Of a DNA stretch of 32,470 bases, positions 3,819 to 31,918 are shown one piece after another. The position numbers were made by a program, and so were the translations under genes. This DNA is from Chloroflexota bacterium (lineage in GTDB: Bacteria > Chloroflexota > Dehalococcoidia > Lucifugimonadales > UBA3495). The stretch's first letter is position 1. Each line of letters starts with the position of its first letter. The notes below the pieces were generated by a model. The model saw only the letters and a program-made list of their open reading frames with translations, made no database searches and was not told the origin of the DNA. The stretch is from assembly GCA_009840165.1 (NCBI GenBank), contig VXOG01000006.1, positions 1-32,470 on the forward strand, given 5' to 3'.

Positions 3819-4616
3819 ATGACCACCGTTACTCTGCTGCCCACCCAACCGTCCGAAATCCGTCGCCTCATCCGCGCCGGCGAGTACGACGGCGTCACCT
3901 CCGGCCTGGCCAACGGACACGTCCAGGCCAACCTGGCCGTCCTGCCCCGCGATCTCGCTTTCGACTTCCTGCTGTTCTGCCAGCGCAACCCTCAACCCTG
4001 CCCGATCCTGGAGGTCGTCGAAGCCGGTTCCGTGGAGCCGTCCTTCGTAGCCCCCGGCGCCGACATCAGCACCGACGTGCCCGCCTACCGGATCTACGAG
4101 CACGGCGAAATGACCGGCGAATACCAGTCCGTCGCCGATTTCTGGCGCGATGACCTGGTCTCGTTCCTGCTGGGTTGCAGCTTCTCCTTCGAGGCCGCCA
4201 TGTCCGACTCCGGCATCCCACTGCGCCATCAGGAAGCCAACAGCAACGTCCCCATGTACATCACCAACATACCCACCCGACCGGCCGGCATGTTCTCCGG
4301 CCCCATGGTGGTGAGCATGCGCCCCATCCCCCGCGAGCAGATCGTCCGCGCCGTCCAGGTCACTTCACGGTTCCCCGACACTCACGGCGCGCCCGTCCAC
4401 ATCGGCGACCCGGCGGCCATCGGCATCCGCGACATCGACGCGCCGGAGTTCGGCGACGCGGTGGAAATCCGCCCCGGCGAAACCCCGGTGTTCTGGGCCT
4501 GCGGGGTTACGCCGCAAGCCGTCGCCCTCAACTGCAAGCCGCCGTTGATGATTACCCACGCCCCCGGCAAAATGTTCATCACCGACCGCCGCGATTCCGA
4601 CTACGCAGTCATATAA
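3819..4616 (+). CDS. Putative hydro-lyase / D-glutamate cyclase-like DUF1445 protein
   Basis: This 265-residue soluble protein belongs to the DUF1445 (UPF0317, 'D-glutamate cyclase' Pfam) family, whose bacterial members are labelled putative hydro-lyases. Family landmarks are the N-terminal [30 protein letters not shown], then [15 protein letters not shown], the core [23 protein letters not shown], the segment [10 protein letters not shown], and the C-terminal [11 protein letters not shown] and [12 protein letters not shown]. In mammals this domain is fused to DUF4392 in the mitochondrial D-glutamate cyclase DGLUCY, which converts D-glutamate to 5-oxo-D-proline. The gene 22 bases downstream is that DUF4392 half, so the two probably act in one pathway. 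The start has GGAGAA about 9 bases upstream. The exact substrate of this homologue is inferred. Confidence 0.88.
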
Positions 4617-4638
4617 CCCTAACCCGGAGCCCTCAATA

Positions 4639-5505
4639 ATGCCAACCATTGAAGACATCATCCTGAACCACGACCGCCGGGGCATCAACGCCCTGCGTCC
4701 CCACCTCCCGGAGGACTTCTGCACCCAGGCGGCGCAGTATCTCTTGGAACACCCCGGCCCGGTCATCATCGCCACCGGCTTCTACATCATCATGAGCGAC
4801 GCCCCGGAAACCGACGGCCCGCCCGGAGCCTTCGCCATCGGCAACGCCATCCGCGAGCTGGGCCACCCGGTGGCCTACGCCGCCGACGACCCGGTGGCCG
4901 GAATGATGGCCAATTTGCTCTCGCAACAGGGCGATTCGTCTCCGGTAATAGATTTCCCGATCACCGGCGACGCCGCCAAAAACTACCAGGCCGCCCGCAA
5001 CGCTATCGCCGAGCATGAGCCGTCCCTGGTCGTATCCATTGAACGGTGCGCCCCCGATGCCCATGGCACGTACCGCAACATGCGCGGCGTGGACATCTCG
5101 GACAAAACCGCCCGCATCGACCGTCTGTTTGAGCTTGGCATCCCCTCCATCGGCATCGGCGACGGCGGCAACGAGATCGGCATGGGCAACCTGCTGGACG
5201 TAGTCGAGGCGGCTGACATGCTGCCCGACTATCCCGCCATCACCACCTGCAACCACCTCATCGCGTCCAGCACTTCCAACTGGGGCGGCTACGGTTTGGT
5301 CGCGGCCCTGTCGGTAGAAGCCGGACGCAACCTGCTGCCCGACCTTGAAACCGACGCGGCCTGCATCCGCTACCTCGTCGATGCCGGCGCGGTCACCGGA
5401 GTTACCGGCGCCCACGACTACCTGGTGGACGAGTTCACACTGGAAGAGAACGCCGCCGTCCTCCAGGAGCTCCACGACTACGTTGCGTCGAACCTGAAGG
5501 GCTGA
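4639..5505 (+). CDS. DUF4392 (D-glutamate cyclase-like C-terminal domain) protein
   Basis: The 288-residue protein matches DUF4392. It begins with MPTIEDIILNHDRRGINALRPHLP and contains PVIIATGFYI, TDGPPGAFAIGNAIRELGHPVAYAADD, VVSIERCAPDAHGTYRNMRGVDIS, the glycine-rich GIPSIGIGDGGNEIGMGNL and the segment TTCNHLIASSTSNWGGYGL. These are the conserved blocks of the C-terminal half of vertebrate D-glutamate cyclase. The gene follows the DUF1445 gene in the same direction with 22 bases between them, so the pair is very likely co-transcribed. No signal peptide or membrane segment is seen, so it should be cytoplasmic. The likely role is D-glutamate or related hydroxy/amino-acid lactam metabolism, inferred from the fusion. 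Confidence 0.88.
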   Translation: MPTIEDIILNHDRRGINALRPHLPEDFCTQAAQYLLEHPGPVIIATGFYIIMSDAPETDGPPGAFAIGNAIRELGHPVAYAADDPVAGMMANLLSQQGDSSPVIDFPITGDAAKNYQAARNAIAEHEPSLVVSIERCAPDAHGTYRNMRGVDISDKTARIDRLFELGIPSIGIGDGGNEIGMGNLLDVVEAADMLPDYPAITTCNHLIASSTSNWGGYGLVAALSVEAGRNLLPDLETDAACIRYLVDAGAVTGVTGAHDYLVDEFTLEENAAVLQELHDYVASNLKG

Positions 5506-5536
5506 CGGCAGCGGGGTTTTCTATTCTGCAAGAAAT

Positions 5537-5648
5537 CCCCTCTCCCTTGATGGGAGAGGGTCAGGGTGAGGGTGACAGGTGTGGCAGGACGCCATTCCTC
5601 AATAGGCTATACCCCTCACCCCAGCCCTCTCCCACAAGGGGAGAGGGA
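5537..5648. repeat. MITE-like inverted repeat with CCCTCTCCC hairpins
   Basis: Two hairpins face each other: CCCTCTCCC-TTGAT-GGGAGAGGG at 5538-5560 and CCCTCTCCC-acaag-GGGAGAGGG at 5625-5647. Each is followed or preceded by the stretch TCAGGGTGAGGGTG or its complement, so the whole unit is one larger inverted repeat of about 110 bp. Related single hairpins occur at 6537-6575 and 24895-24917, which shows a dispersed family. It fills the gap after the DUF4392 gene. Confidence 0.75.
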
Positions 5649-5697
5649 GCACAGATAGGCTCTGATTGATACCGCGTTTCGGAGTCGTTGCCGGGCG

Positions 5698-6030
5698 CTA
5701 CTTCAACGGCACCGCCAGCGATACCCGCGGCTCCTCGCCCGTGTTGCGGATGATGTGGCCATGCCCGGTCAGGTCCTCGGCAACCAGCACGTCGCCGGGG
5801 CCGAACTGCCGCTTGTCGCCGCTGGCCACCTCGATCTCCGCGCCGCCCGACATGAACACGACGTACTGGTGTCGCGGCGCGGTGTGGTAGTCCTGCCACC
5901 AGCCGGCCGGCCGCTGCCCCACCGTGATGTCGCCGGGGCCGACGTCGTTGGCGATGTCGGCAAACTCGTCCGCCGTCAATTCATGGAAGTGGGACTCGCC
6001 GTCAGCCCCGGTATGAATCCGTACAATCAT
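5698..6030 (-). CDS. Small single-domain cupin protein, copy 1
   Basis: The 110-residue protein starts MIVRIHTGADGESHF. It has a single cupin barrel: TAPRHQYVVFMSGGAEIEVASG carries motif 1 (His, Arg-His-Gln, Glu) and FGPGDVLVAEDLTGHGH carries motif 2 with the PGD turn and the final His. Metal binding by these His/Glu residues is expected for cupins. The ATG at 6030 is preferred over the longer frame to 6060 because AAGGA sits about 8 bases upstream and its paralogue begins the same way. It is the most promoter-distal of three tandem cupin paralogues on the minus strand. The substrate is unknown; small cupins like this are often binding or isomerase/dioxygenase proteins. Confidence 0.85.
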   Translation of the reverse strand: MIVRIHTGADGESHFHELTADEFADIANDVGPGDITVGQRPAGWWQDYHTAPRHQYVVFMSGGAEIEVASGDKRQFGPGDVLVAEDLTGHGHIIRNTGEEPRVSLAVPLK

Positions 6031-6055
6031 TTGCACCGTCCTTGATCTTGCTTCC

Positions 6056-6108
6056 GTCATTCCGGCGGAAGAGCGTCACCCCGTACTCGATACGGGGCCG
6101 GAATCCAG
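6056..6108. repeat. Nested palindromic repeat (GTCATTCCGG ... CCGGAATCCAG)
   Basis: The outer arms GTCATTCCGG and CCGGAATCCAG are the same as the arms of the repeat at 17549-17626. Inside them lies the hairpin CCCCGTA-ctcga-TACGGGG (6079-6097), which recurs exactly at 24928-24946. This looks like one repeat inserted into another. Confidence 0.65.
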
Positions 6109-6121
6109 TCGTCGCAACAGG

Positions 6122-6149
6122 GTAGGGGCGAATAATTATTCGCCCCTAC
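6122..6149. repeat. 28-bp perfect palindrome, copy A
   Basis: Arms GTAGGGGCG and CGCCCCTAC flank the symmetric core AATAATTATT, so all 28 bases form a perfect palindrome. An identical copy lies at 27410-27437. It sits between two cupin genes. Confidence 0.85.
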
Positions 6150-6164
6150 GAGTCAAACGAATGC

Positions 6165-6509
6165 CTAGCCGTCGGCCAATGGCACGGCCAGCGAAACCCG
6201 GAACTCGTCGCCGATGCTGCGCGCGATGTGGCCGTGTCCGGTCAGATCCTCGGCAACCAGCACGTCGCCGGGGAACATTCGGACGACGGTGCCATCGGCA
6301 ACCTCAAACTCGGCGATGCCGTTCATGTTCACCACGTACTGGCGGCGCGGCGCGTTGTGGTAGTCCGAAAAGCTCGGCGATTCCCGGCGACCAACCGTGA
6401 TGTCGCCGGGACCAACGTTGTTGGCGATGTCGGCGAACTGGTCCGGCGTCAGGTGCTCAAAATGACTCTCTCCGTCGCTTCCGGTATAAACCCGTACTAT
6501 CTGTCCCAT
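6165..6509 (-). CDS. Small single-domain cupin protein, copy 2
   Basis: The 114-residue protein MGQIVRVYTGSDGESHFEHLTPDQFADIANNVGPGDITVGRRES is closely similar to the next cupin downstream (same FADIAN.VGPGDITVG block, same APRRQYVV motif 1 and same MFPGDVLVAEDLTGHGH motif 2). A strong Shine-Dalgarno AGGAGG precedes the ATG by about 8 bases. It is the middle of three tandem paralogues and is separated from the next one by palindromic repeats. The likely fold is a metal-binding single cupin barrel; the substrate is unknown. Recent duplication is supported by the high similarity over the whole length to copy 1, while copy 3 is more distant. Confidence 0.87.
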   Translation of the reverse strand: MGQIVRVYTGSDGESHFEHLTPDQFADIANNVGPGDITVGRRESPSFSDYHNAPRRQYVVNMNGIAEFEVADGTVVRMFPGDVLVAEDLTGHGHIARSIGDEFRVSLAVPLADG

Positions 6510-6536
6510 CGTGTTGCCTCCTGTCCGTGGTAGTCT

Positions 6537-6575
6537 CCTCTCCCTTGACGGGAGAGGGCTGGGGTGAGGGTGAAA
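6537..6575. repeat. CCTCTCCC hairpin repeat, dispersed family
   Basis: CCTCTCCC-TTGAC-GGGAGAGG followed by CTGGGGTGAGGGTGAAA. It matches the elements at 5537-5648 and 24895-24917 and lies between cupin copies 2 and 3. Confidence 0.65.
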
Positions 6576-6606
6576 TCCCTCCGAGTTCCCCTACAGATCA
6601 ATTCAA

Positions 6607-6945
6607 TCAACCGGCCAGCGGAATCACCGCCGTCAGGCTCGGCGCGTCGCCGACCACCCGAGTGGTGTGTCCCTGGCCCGTAGTGTCCTCGACCAGCCGG
6701 GCGTCGCCGGGGCCGTAGCGGAACGTCGTACCGTCGCCCAGGCCGATTTCGATCTCGCCACGCAGCGAGATGATGTACTGCCGCCGGGGAGCCGGATGCC
6801 AGTCGATGAAATGGCCCGGCGGCCATTCCCGAAACATGATGGACTGCGTGGCCTGCGCCTCTCCAAGTTCCGGATGCTCTGCCAGGCTGGTTTCTTCAAT
6901 GTGCGACTGTCCGTCGTCGCCGGCGTATAGTCTATAAATTGCCAT
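6607..6945 (-). CDS. Small single-domain cupin protein, copy 3
   Basis: The 112-residue protein MAIYRLYAGDDGQSHIEETSLAEHPELGEAQATQ is a diverged paralogue of the two cupins downstream of it. Motif 1 reads HPAPRRQYIISLRGEIEIGLGDG and motif 2 reads YGPGDARLVEDTTGQGH, so the usual His and Glu ligands are retained. The N-terminal WPPGHFIDWH stretch resembles WWQDYH of copy 1. It is the first gene of the tandem set on the minus strand, and an AGGTG stretch lies upstream of the ATG. The function is unknown. Confidence 0.85.
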   Translation of the reverse strand: MAIYRLYAGDDGQSHIEETSLAEHPELGEAQATQSIMFREWPPGHFIDWHPAPRRQYIISLRGEIEIGLGDGTTFRYGPGDARLVEDTTGQGHTTRVVGDAPSLTAVIPLAG

Positions 6946-7163
6946 GGCTCACCTGCTTTGACGGGCGTGCGCCCGAAGTGCCGCCATATTATCGCGCCCA
7001 ACCGCCAGCGGCAACCAAGAGACGCTACTGGATTCCGGATCAAGTCCGGAATGACGAGAATGGGTCCGACATGACAAGAGTGAGTGCGGAATGACGAGAA
7101 TGGGTCCGACATGACACAAGGCAAACCACCCGAATCGGAACGCCGCCGAGGTCGCCGGGATTG
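6946..7163. other. Intergenic region with direct repeats between cupins and act operon
   Basis: No coding gene is seen in this divergent gap. It holds CTGGATTCCGGATCAAGTCCGGAATGACG-type repeat arms near 7028-7055 and a 30-base unit present twice (7047-7076 and 7087-7116, period 40). Confidence 0.6.
7047..7116. repeat. Two 30-bp direct repeats with 40-bp period
   Basis: The unit starting CGGAATGACGAGAATGGG and ending CCGACATGACA is found at 7047-7076 and again, identical, at 7087-7116. Two copies with a 10-base spacer are not enough for a CRISPR array. Confidence 0.8.
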
Positions 7164-22136: not shown

Positions 22137-22862
22137 CTAACACTGGTACATTACTCTAAACTCGTCAATGTTGCGATATAGGCGCTCTCGCTCGCTTGCC
22201 GTACGTCCGTAGTTTCGCCAATACGCCAGGAATTCACTTTCAGACTGAAAGACGCCGTTGCCTTGCTGAAAGTCGGTCAGGCGTCCGGAGATGCTCCCGA
22301 TGTTGGTAGTATTTCCGCTGCCGGCACGGTCACCGGCTATGCGCCATTTTTCTTGCACGAAAACCTCAACTTCGTCAAATGGCGTCGGAATTTCGGACAG
22401 GTCGCCGGTAGAATATATGCGATTGGCGGCGGATGCAGGCATTGCCGTGCGGTTATAGACAAAGCCAACAATCCAGTGTTCACCATACTCGCTATATGGA
22501 AACATAATATTCTTGCGGTCATTACGCAAAAAACTGGTGTAGCTGCCCAACGTGGATGAGAATGCATCACCTGATGCTTGGCGGTACGTTGTTTTCACGT
22601 CAACAGCGATCTTTCTCGCATCTTCAGGTCCCGTAGCCAGCGTAAAATCAGGATAATAATTCTGTTTGTCCGCATCAATAAGAACCAACCCGGCGGTGGC
22701 TGTGTAAGCAACCACCGCTTGCCGGACGATGTTCTCAAAAAGCGTGCTGATTACTTTGGTATCCGAACTCAGTGGGTAAATTCGTCCTCGGCGGTCGATG
22801 ATCCCGCAAACGCCATATCCGTTTTCCAGGCCAGATAGATAGTTGAGGACATATTCCTTCAT
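22137..22862 (-). CDS. EcoRV-like type II restriction endonuclease (predicted GATATC specificity)
   Basis: The 241-residue protein is collinear with EcoRV (245 aa). The catalytic PD-(D/E)XK residues are Asp72 (YYPDFTL), Asp88 and Lys90 (KIAVDVKTTY), matching EcoRV Asp74, Asp90 and Lys92. The EcoRV R-loop that reads the DNA, GSGNTTN, is identical here (181-187). Shared blocks include YGVCGIIDRRGRIYPLSSDTKV, LGSYTSFLRND, HWIVGFVYNR and EFLAYWRNYGRT. It therefore probably cuts the sequence recognised by EcoRV, GATATC. The gene follows the methyltransferase on the same strand, overlapping its stop by ATGA, so both are one operon. Composition is visibly less GC-rich than the neighbours, a sign of transfer. 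Confidence 0.93.
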   Translation of the reverse strand: MKEYVLNYLSGLENGYGVCGIIDRRGRIYPLSSDTKVISTLFENIVRQAVVAYTATAGLVLIDADKQNYYPDFTLATGPEDARKIAVDVKTTYRQASGDAFSSTLGSYTSFLRNDRKNIMFPYSEYGEHWIVGFVYNRTAMPASAANRIYSTGDLSEIPTPFDEVEVFVQEKWRIAGDRAGSGNTTNIGSISGRLTDFQQGNGVFQSESEFLAYWRNYGRTASERERLYRNIDEFRVMYQC

Positions 22863-23701
22863 CCGATTACCAGCCCTTCCTGCATTGCATGGCGGAGGGA
22901 TTCCGTAGCGCCCAGGTGGTAGTAGTGCTCAAAGGTGGCAATTTCGTAGCCAGCAAACCAGTCAAACAGCCGGTCGTTGCGCCGGAATCGATTTTCCACC
23001 CACATTGAGTACAGGAACCGACATGGCGCGTCTTTGAGCGCTTGCGCCAGCTCGTAGCCATCCTGGTCGCTCCAAGTATTGTAATAGTCGGTGTAGCGGC
23101 CGGAATAGGGCGGGTCGGCGTAGATGAAATCGCGCTCATCAACTTCGCCAAGTACCACACGCCAGTCAGCGCAAACGAACTCCCAATCACGGCCCCGCAT
23201 CGCACCGCTGGCCCACTGCACCTGGTTGCAGATTTTCGTGATGTAGGCCGGGCGGAATCGTTCCGGCTTCTTGCAGAATGGTGTGTTGAACTGGCCGCGC
23301 TGATTGAATCGCATCAGGCCGTTGAAGCAGGCTCGACTTACGAACAAAAAGTCCAGTGGATCACCGTCGTTGTTGAAACGTTCCCGAATGCGATAGTAGT
23401 GGTCAGCGCCTTCAACTCTCAGTTGCTCTCCTTCTCGTTGCAGAAACTGCTCGACCCGCGCTGCGGTTACCCGCCCATTTTGCAATGCCCGGTAGAAGTT
23501 GATGATGGGTACGCAGGAGTCCGCAACCAGAGCGCGCTGCGGCCTGATGTTCAGCAAAACCGCTCCAGACCCCAGAAACGGTTCTACCCAGCGCCCCGGC
23601 CCATCCCAAGTGATATGGCCGGCGATGAAGGGCGTCAGCTTGGTCTTGATGCCCTGGGTTTTAATTGGTGGCGCTTTCGGTTTCAGGATATCGTTGAGCA
23701 T
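22859..23701 (-). CDS. M.EcoRV-like adenine-N6 DNA methyltransferase
   Basis: The 280-residue protein is of the Dam/M.EcoRV class: the AdoMet-binding WVEPFLGSGAVLLN and the catalytic FIYADPPYSGRYTDYYNTW (DPPY) are present. Blocks PPIKTQGIKTKLTPF, YYRIRERFNNDGDPLDFLF, RACFNGLMRFNQRGQFNTPFCKKPERF and AYITKICNQV are near-identical in layout to M.EcoRV, and the family protein starts with the same PPIK lead-in. The ATG at 23701 is chosen for that match; a frame to 23764 is longer but has no homology. There is no clear Shine-Dalgarno. It would protect the host by methylating the sequence the partner nuclease cuts. Confidence 0.93.
   Translation of the reverse strand: MLNDILKPKAPPIKTQGIKTKLTPFIAGHITWDGPGRWVEPFLGSGAVLLNIRPQRALVADSCVPIINFYRALQNGRVTAARVEQFLQREGEQLRVEGADHYYRIRERFNNDGDPLDFLFVSRACFNGLMRFNQRGQFNTPFCKKPERFRPAYITKICNQVQWASGAMRGRDWEFVCADWRVVLGEVDERDFIYADPPYSGRYTDYYNTWSDQDGYELAQALKDAPCRFLYSMWVENRFRRNDRLFDWFAGYEIATFEHYYHLGATESLRHAMQEGLVIG
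23687..23692. other. GATATC site inside codons 4-5 of the methyltransferase gene
   Basis: GATATC, the EcoRV recognition sequence, lies at the start of the methyltransferase gene (Asp-Ile of MLNDILKP). It is the only copy I noticed when reading for it in the window; the scan was by eye. Confidence 0.7.
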
Positions 23702-23854
23702 GGAACATTTATCGCAGCGTTTTCTTTGCCATTGTGGTATGGCAAGGCCGCAACATCCTAACAAGTGTTCGTTTCAGAAGTCAACAGCGCAGCTGCGGCA
23801 CGAGGGACGATAGCGGTAGTACAATGCCAGCATCTCCATAGGTTGGACTGACTC

Positions 23855-28634: not shown

Positions 28635-28985
28635 TTACTGGTACATGATGCGGAAAATGCTCTCCAGAATTTCCTCAAGTTCACCACCCGACATCACGCC
28701 AATCAAATCCCCCATGCGCTGTGCAGATACCGTTCGGATATGCTCCGTCAAAACCCACGAGGGCGTGTTCGGCATAGCAACCGTCCGGATCTGCACAGCA
28801 GTTGCCCGCCCACGATTAGATTCGGAAGAACCTATCAACGCTACGATAACTAACTGCGATGCAGCATTGAAACGGTCGTTGCTCAATATGAGCGCGGGGC
28901 GTCGATTCCCCTGTTCATGCCCTACTACTCTATTGGCAGGCTCTATGTCCACCCATCTTATTTCGCCCCTCAGTAACTGGGCCAT
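28635..28985 (-). CDS. MazF/PemK-type toxin (endoribonuclease)
   Basis: The 116-residue protein has the MazF fold: LLRGEIRWVDIEPANRVVGHEQGNRRPALILSNDRFN with the RP-x-LI and SN blocks, a TEHIRTVSAQRM block near 80-91 (conserved in the family as the dimer/active-site strand), and a C-terminal helix LEEILESIFRIM. MazF proteins cleave RNA at short sequences. Its start overlaps the end of the upstream gene by 16 bases, as is usual for antitoxin-toxin pairs, although the upstream gene is not a MazE-type protein. Its region is less GC-rich than its neighbours. Confidence 0.9.
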   Translation of the reverse strand: MAQLLRGEIRWVDIEPANRVVGHEQGNRRPALILSNDRFNAASQLVIVALIGSSESNRGRATAVQIRTVAMPNTPSWVLTEHIRTVSAQRMGDLIGVMSGGELEEILESIFRIMYQ

Positions 28986-29428
28986 GCCCCGACATCCTCA
29001 GCCAGACCCGCTTCCGCAAGTTCAATCCCTTCTGCTATCTGTTCCGGAGTCAGCGACCAATCAGCAACGGGAGCTTTCTGAAGTTTGCGTTTCATTTTGT
29101 CGAAAGCCACCGCAATCTCTGCGGTACCCGCTTGATGATGCCTCAACTTCGTGATCTCACCATCCCTCAACCGTCGCAAAGCCGCTCTCTGTTCCGCGTG
29201 GTTATCTCCGAACCGCTTAATAAGCGCTTCAGCATCCGCAATTGTGACTTCCCTTGCCACCACCGCTGTCCAGATCTCACGGTCTCCCTTGAGCCGAATT
29301 CTATTGGCTTGCTTAACTGCCCTGTCGGAGCAATTCACATACCGCACAGCCTCTTCCTGAGAAAAACCGTCAGCTCTCAGGAGAGCCCCGAATACGGCCC
29401 AACTTGATTCATCCCAAACCGCAGGCAT
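28970..29428 (-). CDS. Putative antitoxin with ParB/HTH-like repeats, partner of MazF
   Basis: The 152-residue protein starts MPAVWDESSWAVFGALL. It contains DGFSQEEAVRYVNCSDRAVKQANRIRLKGD, a helix-turn-helix-like stretch, then EVTIADAEALIKRFGDNHAEQRAALRRLRDGEITKL, which resembles the ParB/KorB-type helical core (xLTxxxAExLxxxxxx...Q..A...). A helical C-terminus reads SLTPEQIAEGIELAEAGLAEDVGAWP. It could both repress its own operon and bind MazF. ATG 29428 is chosen because GAGGGAAG lies 5 bases upstream; a longer frame to 29473 begins with TTG. The family is not identified with certainty. It is about twice as long as a typical MazE. Confidence 0.7.
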   Translation of the reverse strand: MPAVWDESSWAVFGALLRADGFSQEEAVRYVNCSDRAVKQANRIRLKGDREIWTAVVAREVTIADAEALIKRFGDNHAEQRAALRRLRDGEITKLRHHQAGTAEIAVAFDKMKRKLQKAPVADWSLTPEQIAEGIELAEAGLAEDVGAWPSY

Positions 29429-29543
29429 ACTTCCCTCGTTCGTCGATAGGCGTGGCCAAATCTTCTCCTTCAAATGGATTATACTCCCTTACCGATAAAC
29501 TCACGGTTTATCGCTCGGATTTCGGGCGATGGCTGTTGATGGC

Positions 29544-29600: not shown

Positions 29601-31322
29601 CTACCCAACGTCCTCCACCGGCACCGTCGCAATGCCATACGTCCCGTAGAAGAAGTTGGCGTAGTGGGTGGAGCCGCCGGTAACCCACAGCAGGTACTGG
29701 TCCGGATCCTCCAGCGCGGGAATCGTCGCGTCAGGGTCGTCGGCAAGGTGCTGCAACTCGGGATGCGCCAGCCACTTGCCGTTCTCGTCCGTCGGGACGC
29801 CGTTGCGGATGGCGTCCTGCACCGACGCGCGGCAGCGCTCGTGCAGCCATTCCTGCGCGTCCCGCTTGCTGAAACCGGCGTTGTGTAGAATTACCGCACG
29901 CGACGGGCTGAGCATGATGGGATGGTACGGCCCCTGGAAGGGCACCCGCTGGTTGGTGTGCCCAACCTGCGCCGTCTGCCGACCCTTGATCCAGGCTCCG
30001 CCGCCGGCGTGCCGGTAGAACATCATGGACGCGATGTTGTTCAGCGTGTCCAGGTGGTTCTTCGAGGCGTTGTCCAGCACGTCCGTCGGCCCGGTTACCG
30101 TCACCACCGTTACCGCGCTTTCGTCGGCACGGAAACCCTTGTCCACGTGATACGGCTGCCACGGGCTGACTTCCTCGTTCTCGGCGATGCACATGCCGAA
30201 CTTGGTGGGCAGCCCGATGAAGTTGGGGTCGCCCGCGCCCGCCTTGCAGTAACCGATGTTGATCAGGCACAACCGCAGCGCGCGCCCGATGGCGGTGTTG
30301 GCCTTGTTGACCACGCCCGGCCCCATGGCCGACGTGCCGTAGTTGATGCCCGCCCGGTCGGCAATCGGACCGTTCACCAGGATCAGCGGCGCCTCGGTAT
30401 GGCCGGAGACCTGCATGTCCCGGTGGTTGCTCTCCGGCTGCGCGATGCACTCGATGGCGGCCAGCAGGATCGGGAACTGCTCGGGACTGCAACCGGCCAT
30501 GACGGCGTTGATGGCGATCTTTTCCACGGTGGCCAAGCCGAACCCAGGCTCCATGACCATCACCACGTCCTGCGGGGCGCGGCGGGTGCCCTTCAGCATC
30601 GCCTCCACCAACTCGGGCGTGGGCGGAACCACGGGCATCCCGTCGCTCCAGTCCCTCTCCTCCATGAAGCGGTTGACGGCGTCAATGCCCCACGGCGATT
30701 CGTCCAGCGTCACCGTGAACACGTCGGTCTCGCTGTGGCCGTTGGTCATGCTCGTGAGGTCCGCCGTGGTGGACATCCGGGTCAGTCCCAGGATGATGTT
30801 GTCGATCTGCTCATCCACCATACTGTGGATGTAATCGGACTGCTGCCCGGTGCAGGCGTGGGGAATCGTGACGAACGCCGTCGCCGGCTGCCCCCAGCCA
30901 TCCACACAAGACTGCCACGCCCGGGCGAAACTGCGCGCGGCGATACCGACGGCGGGAATCCCTGCCTTCTCCATCGCTACCATGTCGTGGGCAAGCCACG
31001 ACGTGCAGCCCCCTCAATGCGCCGCCGCCCCCACCATCGCGTCAACCTCGTTGGCGATGATGGCCGCCTCCGCCTCGTCGATATGGACGCCGCGACTGAG
31101 CGCCGGACGGCCATCGCGTCGGGGGCCGCCGTAGCTCTCAAACTTCACGCCGGAGTAGCGTCGGGCGATGTGCTCGGCCACCCGATCCACCGCCACGCCG
31201 GCGCCGCCGGTCATGTTGTCGTACAGGCCGATGGTCTTGCCCTCCAGCGTCTCCAGGCGCGGAGCCGGCGGAACTTTGAAATCCACCCGCGCGGCGGCGG
31301 GCGACATGATTCGCAACTGCAT
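29601..31322 (-). CDS. UGSC-family selenoprotein with in-frame TGA (Sec103)
   Basis: One 573-codon gene is read through an in-frame TGA at codon 103 (bases 31016-31014). The N-terminal 170 residues form the UGSC-type domain: LEGKTIGLYDNMTGGAGVAVD, VDAMVGAAAH-Sec-GGC-TSWLAHDMVAMEKAGIPAVGIAARSF. The motif Sec-Gly-Gly-Cys resembles a redox pair. From about 200 onward a second domain of about 370 residues follows (SPWGIDAVNRFMEERDWSDGMPVVPPTPELVEAMLKG, INAVMAGCSPEQFPILLAAI, VTVTGPTDVLDNASKNHL); I cannot name it. Homology on both sides of the TGA is continuous in one frame, and a SECIS-like hairpin follows. The start ATG 31322 has AGGGG about 13 bases upstream. If the TGA were a stop, only 102 residues would be made. 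The function is unknown. Confidence 0.85.
30981..31016 (-). promoter_or_regulatory. Bacterial SECIS-like hairpin following the TGA codon
   Basis: In the mRNA the UGA (31016-31014) is followed after 11 bases by GUCGUGG-CUUGC-CCACGAC, a perfect 7-bp stem (30984-31002) with a 5-base loop; two more pairs form beyond a C-A mismatch. UGA-to-loop distance is about 18 bases, within the range known for bacterial SECIS elements. If the top G-C pair opens, the loop begins with G, which is the usual rule. Confidence 0.75.
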
Positions 31323-31467: not shown

Positions 31468-31713
31468 ATGGCCATCTATCAGTTGGACTACATCCTCCAC
31501 GAACCTGAAGAGAGCGAAGGGCGGATGTATTTGGCCGAAGCGCCGGCCTTGCAGGGCTGCATGGCTTGGGGGGACACGCCGGAAGAGACCCTCCTCGAAC
31601 TTCTGGACGTGGCCCGCATGATTTTCGAGCTCCGCAAGGAGTGGGGAGAACCTATTCCGGAAGAACCGCTTGCGCCGGGCGCGCACCGGGGAAGCCTGAC
31701 CGTAGCCGTATGA
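31468..31713 (+). CDS. hicB: HicB-type antitoxin
   Basis: The 81-residue protein MAIYQLDYILHEPEESEGRMYLAEAPALQGCMAWGDTPEETLLELLDVARMIFELRKEWGEPIPEEP has the HicB fold: beta strands with AEAPALQGCMAWGDT and a helix EETLLELLDVA. HicB neutralises the HicA RNA-cleaving toxin. A GAGAGCGAG stretch precedes the ATG by about 4 bases. Its stop overlaps the hicA start (ATGA at 31710-31713), the usual hicBA arrangement. The downstream hicA is frameshifted, so this antitoxin may now lack a partner. No DNA-binding domain is seen in its short tail. Confidence 0.85.
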   Translation: MAIYQLDYILHEPEESEGRMYLAEAPALQGCMAWGDTPEETLLELLDVARMIFELRKEWGEPIPEEPLAPGAHRGSLTVAV

Positions 31714-31918
31714 CCTACGGGGAGCTGCGGCGCAAGCTGGAGAGCCTGGCTGCGTCTTTCAACGGCAAGGCCGAGACTCCCACGAAATTTGGGCGAACCC
31801 GGCAAACGGGCGTGTGACGCCTGTCCCCAGGCACGGAAACCGCGACCTGGCCGCCGGGACGATCCACCGCATCCGCAGAAACCTGGGCATCTCACGCTCA
31901 GAATTCGACCAGGCCTAG
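31710..31918 (+). pseudogene. hicA: hicA toxin gene with single-base frameshift
   Basis: From ATG 31710 the frame reads MTYGELRRKLESLAASF and stops after 35 codons at a TGA (31815-31817). In the -1 frame, the sequence continues as GCVFQRQGRDSHEIWANP, then GRVTPVPRHGNRDLAAGTIHRI and RRNLGISRSEFDQA before a TAG at 31916-31918. That is the complete HicA fold, including the catalytic-region His of DSHEIW. The join falls at GAGAGCCTGGCTGCG near 31738-31752, where one base appears to be missing. It is either a disabled toxin or a sequencing error; -1 ribosomal slippage is less likely. Confidence 0.85.

Follow-up and report, generated by a model that had tools for sequence, protein, structure and literature searches.

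Is the in-frame TGA at positions 31016-31014 (minus strand) of this locus a stop, or is it read as selenocysteine (Sec), and what would the protein then do? The window, i.e. the whole stretch of DNA analysed (32,470 nucleotides), belongs to a Chloroflexota draft genome (115 contigs, 5.7% contamination). Conventional translation of 31322-29601 on the minus strand gives two frames, and this TGA is the sole interruption between them. The initial annotation had joined these frames into one 573-codon gene, and the coordinates, the shared frame and the TGA were all borne out; the UGGC motif at 31016 and the hairpin directly after the TGA are also present as it described them. From sequence comparison, we favour (probability of roughly 0.7) a two-domain selenoprotein in which a Sec-decoded UGSC domain related to GrdB is fused to a partner domain, likely forming a thioredoxin-coupled, selenolate-based reductase. 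The features are the following:

29601-31322, minus strand: fused UGSC selenoprotein gene, 573 codons plus a TAG stop, with codon 103 (TGA) predicted to be Sec
31014-31016, minus strand: TGA codon 103, predicted Sec; TGA in 34 of 34 distinct orthologous genes, including the window's own
31005-31007, minus strand: codon 106 (TGC), the Cys that completes the U-G-G-C pair; TGC or TGT in 34 of 34 orthologs
30984-31002, minus strand: hairpin supported as the bacterial SECIS, in which GUCGUGG and CCACGAC pair as a 7-bp stem around the loop CUUGC; the stem is separated from the TGA by 11 bases
30780-31310, minus strand: UGSC domain (Pfam PF24696, residues about 5-181), from a profile match and remote similarity to the Sec domain of GrdB
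29604-30728, minus strand: residues 199-573, the C-terminal domain, without a named family and encoded by a gene of its own in other loci

A full-length match with exactly one TGA was present in 38 of the 50 genomes of the same family (counted by eye, window's own included). The other 37 full-length copies were 63-98% identical to the window protein, and all 50 genomes searched matched it somewhere. Scanning a contig collection with the window protein gave 29 loci, 25 of which were close orthologs (at least 76% identity) in records titled Chloroflexota, Chloroflexi, Dehalococcoidia or SAR202. Every one of the 54 ortholog loci that were fetched (protein identity 74-98%) had the TGA in the same column; many of these are the same genes from two collections and, together with the window's own, they amount to 34 distinct coding sequences, none of which has another in-frame stop. 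Cys was not found at the Sec position in any of the window's orthologs. The dN/dS values of the window gene against nine orthologs were 0.043-0.156 before the TGA and 0.025-0.149 after it; both sides are under purifying selection. Homologues align through codon 103, mostly with Sec or Cys there, and do not all end before the TGA. For another gene, C115, a reading as a further fusion carrying two Sec codons was considered. This reading was tentatively set aside, because the second TGA of C115 falls between its domains and the second in-frame stop is TAA or TAG in other genomes.

Agreement at fourfold degenerate third bases was 80% of pairs in codons 101-110, the top ten-codon window of the gene, vs. 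50% overall (34 sequences). The folding energy of the hairpin alone was unremarkable (z of -0.6 vs. shuffles). Synonymous shuffles gave a z of -1.4 to -1.5 at the hairpin site, a level that 14 of the gene's 85 other windows also reached, and a mean of -1.25 in 24 genes of the ortholog group (three not below zero). When 45 UGSC genes were aligned without gaps, pairs 15-21/27-33 were standard in 82.5% of the cells, compared to 20-50% when slid by 1-3 columns, and 28 cells were changed on both sides (shuffled mean 6.8; 0 of 500 shuffles as high). When nine initially omitted sites were restored (54 genes), 78.0% were paired and 52 cells were double-changed (18.2 in the shuffles; again 0 of 500). 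Kinship among sequences can beat such shuffles without any structure, and the slid-column controls guard against this. By one measure, how many of the pairs had changed on both sides, neither set stood out (5 vs. 3.4 with 45 genes, 6 vs. 4.9 with 54), and the two outer stem pairs were unpaired in about half of the UGSC genes compared. The Rfam scan of the window gave nothing above gathering scores. Comparison thus supports a bacterial SECIS, through the codon constraint after the TGA together with the hairpin covariation across UGSC genes. The stem varies as a palindrome in the aligned UGSC genes (UGC...GCA, GCC...GGC, UGG...CCA, UAC...GUA), so that the amino acids at +6 and +9 after Sec vary together; the couples observed were C..H, A..A, W..H and Y..Y. 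The RNA structure seems to steer the protein sequence in the helix following Sec.

The genome search gave selA (551.8 bits), selB (363.4), selD (373.5) and a tRNA-Sec (66.4 bits) with the anticodon tca. The selD gene of the same genome has its own in-frame TGA, its product reading HCAGUAAKL. As the genome is a draft, the linkage of gene to machinery by binning is not certain; for selA, single-contig relatives agree. SelA was over the cut-off in 43 of the 50 family genomes; the 38 that have a full-length ortholog accounted for 35 of these, including three single-contig genomes; the three full-length-ortholog genomes with no selA match over the cut-off are 66, 78 and 87% complete. In a draw of 400 Chloroflexota genomes, selA was found in 39 of 42 UGSC genomes (G266, G378 and G393 had no match above the cut-off) vs. 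321 of 400 overall (compared by eye), a co-occurrence that is weak evidence since selA is common anyway.

Sec insertion, which the initial annotation had inferred, is therefore supported by comparison and by the presence of selA, selB, selD and tRNA-Sec in the genome, and codon 103 is almost certainly decoded as Sec by means of the downstream hairpin and the SelA/SelB/SelC/SelD of the genome. It is scarcely credible that translation truly stops at this TGA, or that the codon is an assembly error, with a separate or dead gene downstream: nine of 32 plausible window genes, chosen by hand, end in TGA, so that this codon is also an ordinary stop in this DNA, but its presence in every ortholog locus fetched, the constraint on both sides, the SECIS covariation and the complete Sec machinery all oppose this. 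Decoding of UGA as another amino acid, by an altered code or by suppression, is just as hard to credit; its one argument is the open frame, against which TGA serves as a stop elsewhere in the window, many homologues have Cys at the site, and the anticodon tca occurred only in tRNA-Sec among the best five of 13 tRNA-Sec candidates scanned.

The read-through protein matched PF24696 over residues 5-181 with 94.8 bits (gathering cut-off 25; E 8.7e-27), and a six-frame search of the genome found the window gene at E 3.2e-25. Two parts of the protein also passed the PF24696 cut-off when taken separately: residues 1-112, which contain the Sec site, and the stretch that starts at residue 114. The score against the NCBIfam equivalog NF041046 was 79.1 bits, below its cut-off of 125; the window protein is a member of the wider UGSC family, not of this equivalog. 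It shares with the family (PF24696/NF041046) the Pfam match across the TGA, the Sec/Cys site and the SECIS, and the partner gene is also adjacent in records named UGSC family by NCBI, but the window protein is fused to the partner domain and has UGGC instead of UGSC. The Ser-to-Gly change had been called unusual, and it proved to be ordinary: UGSC relatives show UGSC, UGGC, UGTC, UGNC, UGAC and USTC, and UGGC recurs in locus L135 and in a second gene of the same genome (C72). This genome has eight UGSC domains, namely the window fusion and seven UGSC genes with a nearby partner-domain gene; six of these seven have UGSC and one (C72) has UGGC.

UGSC was found in 42 of the 400 drawn Chloroflexota genomes, with one TGA in 91 of 96 matches (counted by eye); two of the five matches without TGA are fragments off the site. 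Haloarchaea, proteobacteria and actinobacteria have homologues that carry Cys in place of Sec. Some homologues do not have the Sec/Cys pair (aligned by eye): the site is Thr in L130 and Met in L131, while L129 keeps Cys at the Sec site and has lost the second Cys. In the tree, the ortholog group of the window gene clusters with other fused genes (L058, L133-135, L139) with 94% ultrafast bootstrap (the tool's mark is 95). Fused and split forms need four label changes on it, and one origin of the fusion is possible. Seven loci (L141, L142, L144-L148) have fused UGSC-like genes with USTC, four of them with a TrxB-like gene. A fused homologue of Nitrospiraceae (L060) has two N at 3999-4000, about where the Sec motif is expected, which makes its Sec/Cys state unreadable.

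The C-terminal part, two thirds of the protein, is, from these comparisons, a separate unnamed domain of about 350 residues that accompanies UGSC in archaea and bacteria. It is a separate neighbouring gene in the seven other UGSC loci of the source genome and a separate gene in 10 of 14 plasmid loci. Pfam had no family for residues 199-573 or for six split partners, and neither had NCBIfam except for one match of a split partner to aspartate dehydrogenase (E 0.0059), which was judged spurious. A PDB sequence search with this domain gave no convincing relative (the best, E 0.086, was a short chance match), and a PDB fold search with the domain modelled alone (pLDDT 80.5) gave no match (best E 0.74). 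A GrdB-like C-terminal domain was also considered and rejected (hhalign 0.61 to GrdB, 0.36 to UGSC).

Against plasmids, tblastn found the partner domain in 24 records, including haloarchaea, proteobacteria, actinobacteria and a Sporomusa. In all 14 of these loci that were fetched and examined, a UGSC homologue was beside the partner domain or fused to it. Their Sec site was Cys in 10, Sec in two (Acidovorax and Paracoccus) and neither in two (Vibrio and Sporomusa, both Met). The fused forms were four: Acidovorax (Sec), Variovorax boronicumulans (Cys), Vibrio and Sporomusa (Met). In five plasmid loci the neighbour of the partner is named 'UGSC family (seleno)protein' by NCBI. The fused Met forms of Sporomusa and Vibrio (L169 4323-6047 and L171 4365-6050) have aconitase X and DUF126 genes nearby. 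In Acidovorax, the fused Sec form (UGSC plus partner, one TGA) is on a conjugative IncP plasmid (L165, about 5440-7050). There the annotation lists just one short hypothetical protein ahead of the TGA and no gene over the remainder (the gene table of this plasmid is incomplete).

By hhalign, 46 UGSC rows (44 distinct) aligned with seven Chloroflexota GrdB sequences over 88 columns, Sec on Sec (P 9.5e-9); masking the UGxC columns in both profiles left P at 3.4e-5. The best of 30 column shuffles gave 0.041 and the reversed profile 0.043; the control families gave 0.02 (TlpA), 0.2 (SDR), 0.37 (ABC) and 0.46 (ROK) against the UGSC profile. On these profile alignments, the UGSC domain is remotely related to the domain at the C-terminal end of GrdB that bears its Sec, a relation that is new here. 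With GrdB (PF07355, selenoprotein B of glycine/sarcosine/betaine reductase) it shares U-G-x-C, followed by a helix and then E-x-x-G-I-P, but the UGSC protein is without the N-terminal region of GrdB, and no relation between GrdB and the partner domain was detected. Tested as a full-length GrdB, the protein had no PF07355 match at E 1e-3 and scored 12.9 bits against TIGR01917 (cut-off 602.2). No match to PF09338 (GrdE/PrdA-type subunit) or PF04723 (GrdA) was obtained in the genome; these searches gave no signal from any control, so the absence of both genes is not established. Short GrdB-like selenoproteins aligned less well with the UGSC profile (1.3e-4). Two short GrdB-like genes are in the same genome, L162 (G000:C83:7033-7458) and G000:C67:2814-3029; the in-frame TGA of L162 reads as U-P-L-C, and it is probably another selenoprotein.

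In the predicted model (pLDDT 78.7) strands and helices alternate, with Sec after the fourth strand and just before the helix of residues 104-119, and their predicted order differs from that of thioredoxin. Foldseek with the full model had no match at E 1e-3 or better (best E 4.2e-3); the top rows included Rossmann- or flavodoxin-like folds among others, none significant.

The gene rows point to thioredoxin. The Arthrobacter row is trxB, trxA, partner, UGSC; that of Roseovarius is partner, UGSC, trxB; and in Variovorax SRS16, trxB precedes the partner/UGSC pair with two genes between. A TrxB-like gene was present in 6 of 14 plasmid loci vs. 5 of 116 other loci, the latter being nearly all Chloroflexota with flanks of a few kb. 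Three of five TrxB-like genes tested were above the NCBIfam TrxB cut-off and two were below. No TrxB-like gene was found anywhere in the window or in the fetched loci of its ortholog group (flanks mostly 1.5-4 kb). The 24 ortholog loci compared had no conserved neighbourhood; ABC transporter ATPases were neighbours in five and a hydrolase-like gene (by eye) in eight. Around the split pairs, the 19 neighbours tested were enzymes and genes of many kinds, none common to the pairs.

Glycine and proline reductases use thioredoxin and selenolate attack, and the Sec of GrdB/PrdB is held to attack the substrate as a selenolate. This chemistry, the GrdB alignment, the predicted model and the trxB/trxA rows together favour a thioredoxin-fed reductase whose partner domain binds the substrate. 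The N-terminal UGSC domain would be an alpha/beta domain with Sec at a helix start and Cys three residues on. The partner domain would hold a small organic substrate, which the selenolate would attack; the Sec-Cys pair would then close to a selenenylsulfide, to be reopened by thioredoxin and thioredoxin reductase. By analogy with these reductases, we consider this mechanism somewhat probable; as a guess, it would serve to break down some small organic acid or amine. More tentatively, UGSC and its partner may constitute a separate class of thioredoxin-coupled, selenolate- or thiolate-based reductases, in which the GrdB-type Sec domain is joined to a substrate-binding domain that is unrelated to GrdB and possibly new in fold, spread over archaea, bacteria and plasmids, and multiplied to eight copies in this SAR202 genome, each for a different substrate.

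A thioredoxin-fold redox protein, for which the UxxC motif speaks and which the TrxB and TrxA neighbours would fit as they would any thiol redox enzyme, is unlikely: the predicted model has alternating strands and helices with Sec beginning the helix after the fourth strand, no thioredoxin was among the 50 Foldseek matches listed (none of them significant), and the TlpA-like protein of the window had no match to the UGSC profile (0.02). It is also improbable that this is a binding or carrier protein (for a metal, arsenic, or an acyl or CoA-linked ligand) in which Sec/Cys acts as a ligand and not as a redox nucleophile. Ligand binding would persist in forms lacking Sec/Cys, and the homologues with Met or Thr at the Sec site would fit this, but the thioredoxin-system neighbours and the retention of the UxxC pair in 34 of 34 orthologs, and of U/CxxC in 12 of 14 plasmid homologues, argue against it.

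The Global Ocean Sampling survey of 2008 counted 255 Sec and 21 Cys UGSC proteins, placed UGSC among the commonest selenoprotein families in ocean metagenomes, suggested a thioredoxin order for it, and described a fusion between a UGSC selenoprotein and a conserved but uncharacterised domain, Unknown_1 (PMC2398784). The window protein resembles that fusion in this make-up, and Unknown_1 is likely to be the same as its C-terminal domain. Reviews of 2022 and 2026 list UGSC without function (PMC9312934, PMC13188914), and a term search of the main text of the 2005 Sargasso survey did not return the word UGSC (PMC1088965). No link of UGSC with GrdB or with a thioredoxin gene row was found in the available parts of these four publications. 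The UGSC fusion has thus been in print since 2008, while the GrdB relation and the description of the partner domain are new here. The partner domain, the GrdB relation, the Cys forms of haloarchaea and proteobacteria and the thioredoxin/reductase rows give testable hypotheses in cultivable hosts, and the Acidovorax plasmid illustrates how annotation can miss fused Sec genes.

Several other genes of the window were observed. An EcoRV-type restriction endonuclease adjoins a D12-class adenine methyltransferase (22137-23764), and a PemK/MazF-type toxin gene (28635-29473) is overlapped by the preceding unnamed gene. A HicB-like frame (by eye) lies on the plus strand near 31469-31714. A D-glutamate cyclase is split over two neighbouring genes at 3819-5505 (D-Glu_cyclase and GLUCM-like_C domains), and three similar small consecutive genes, cupin-like by eye, are at 5698-6945.
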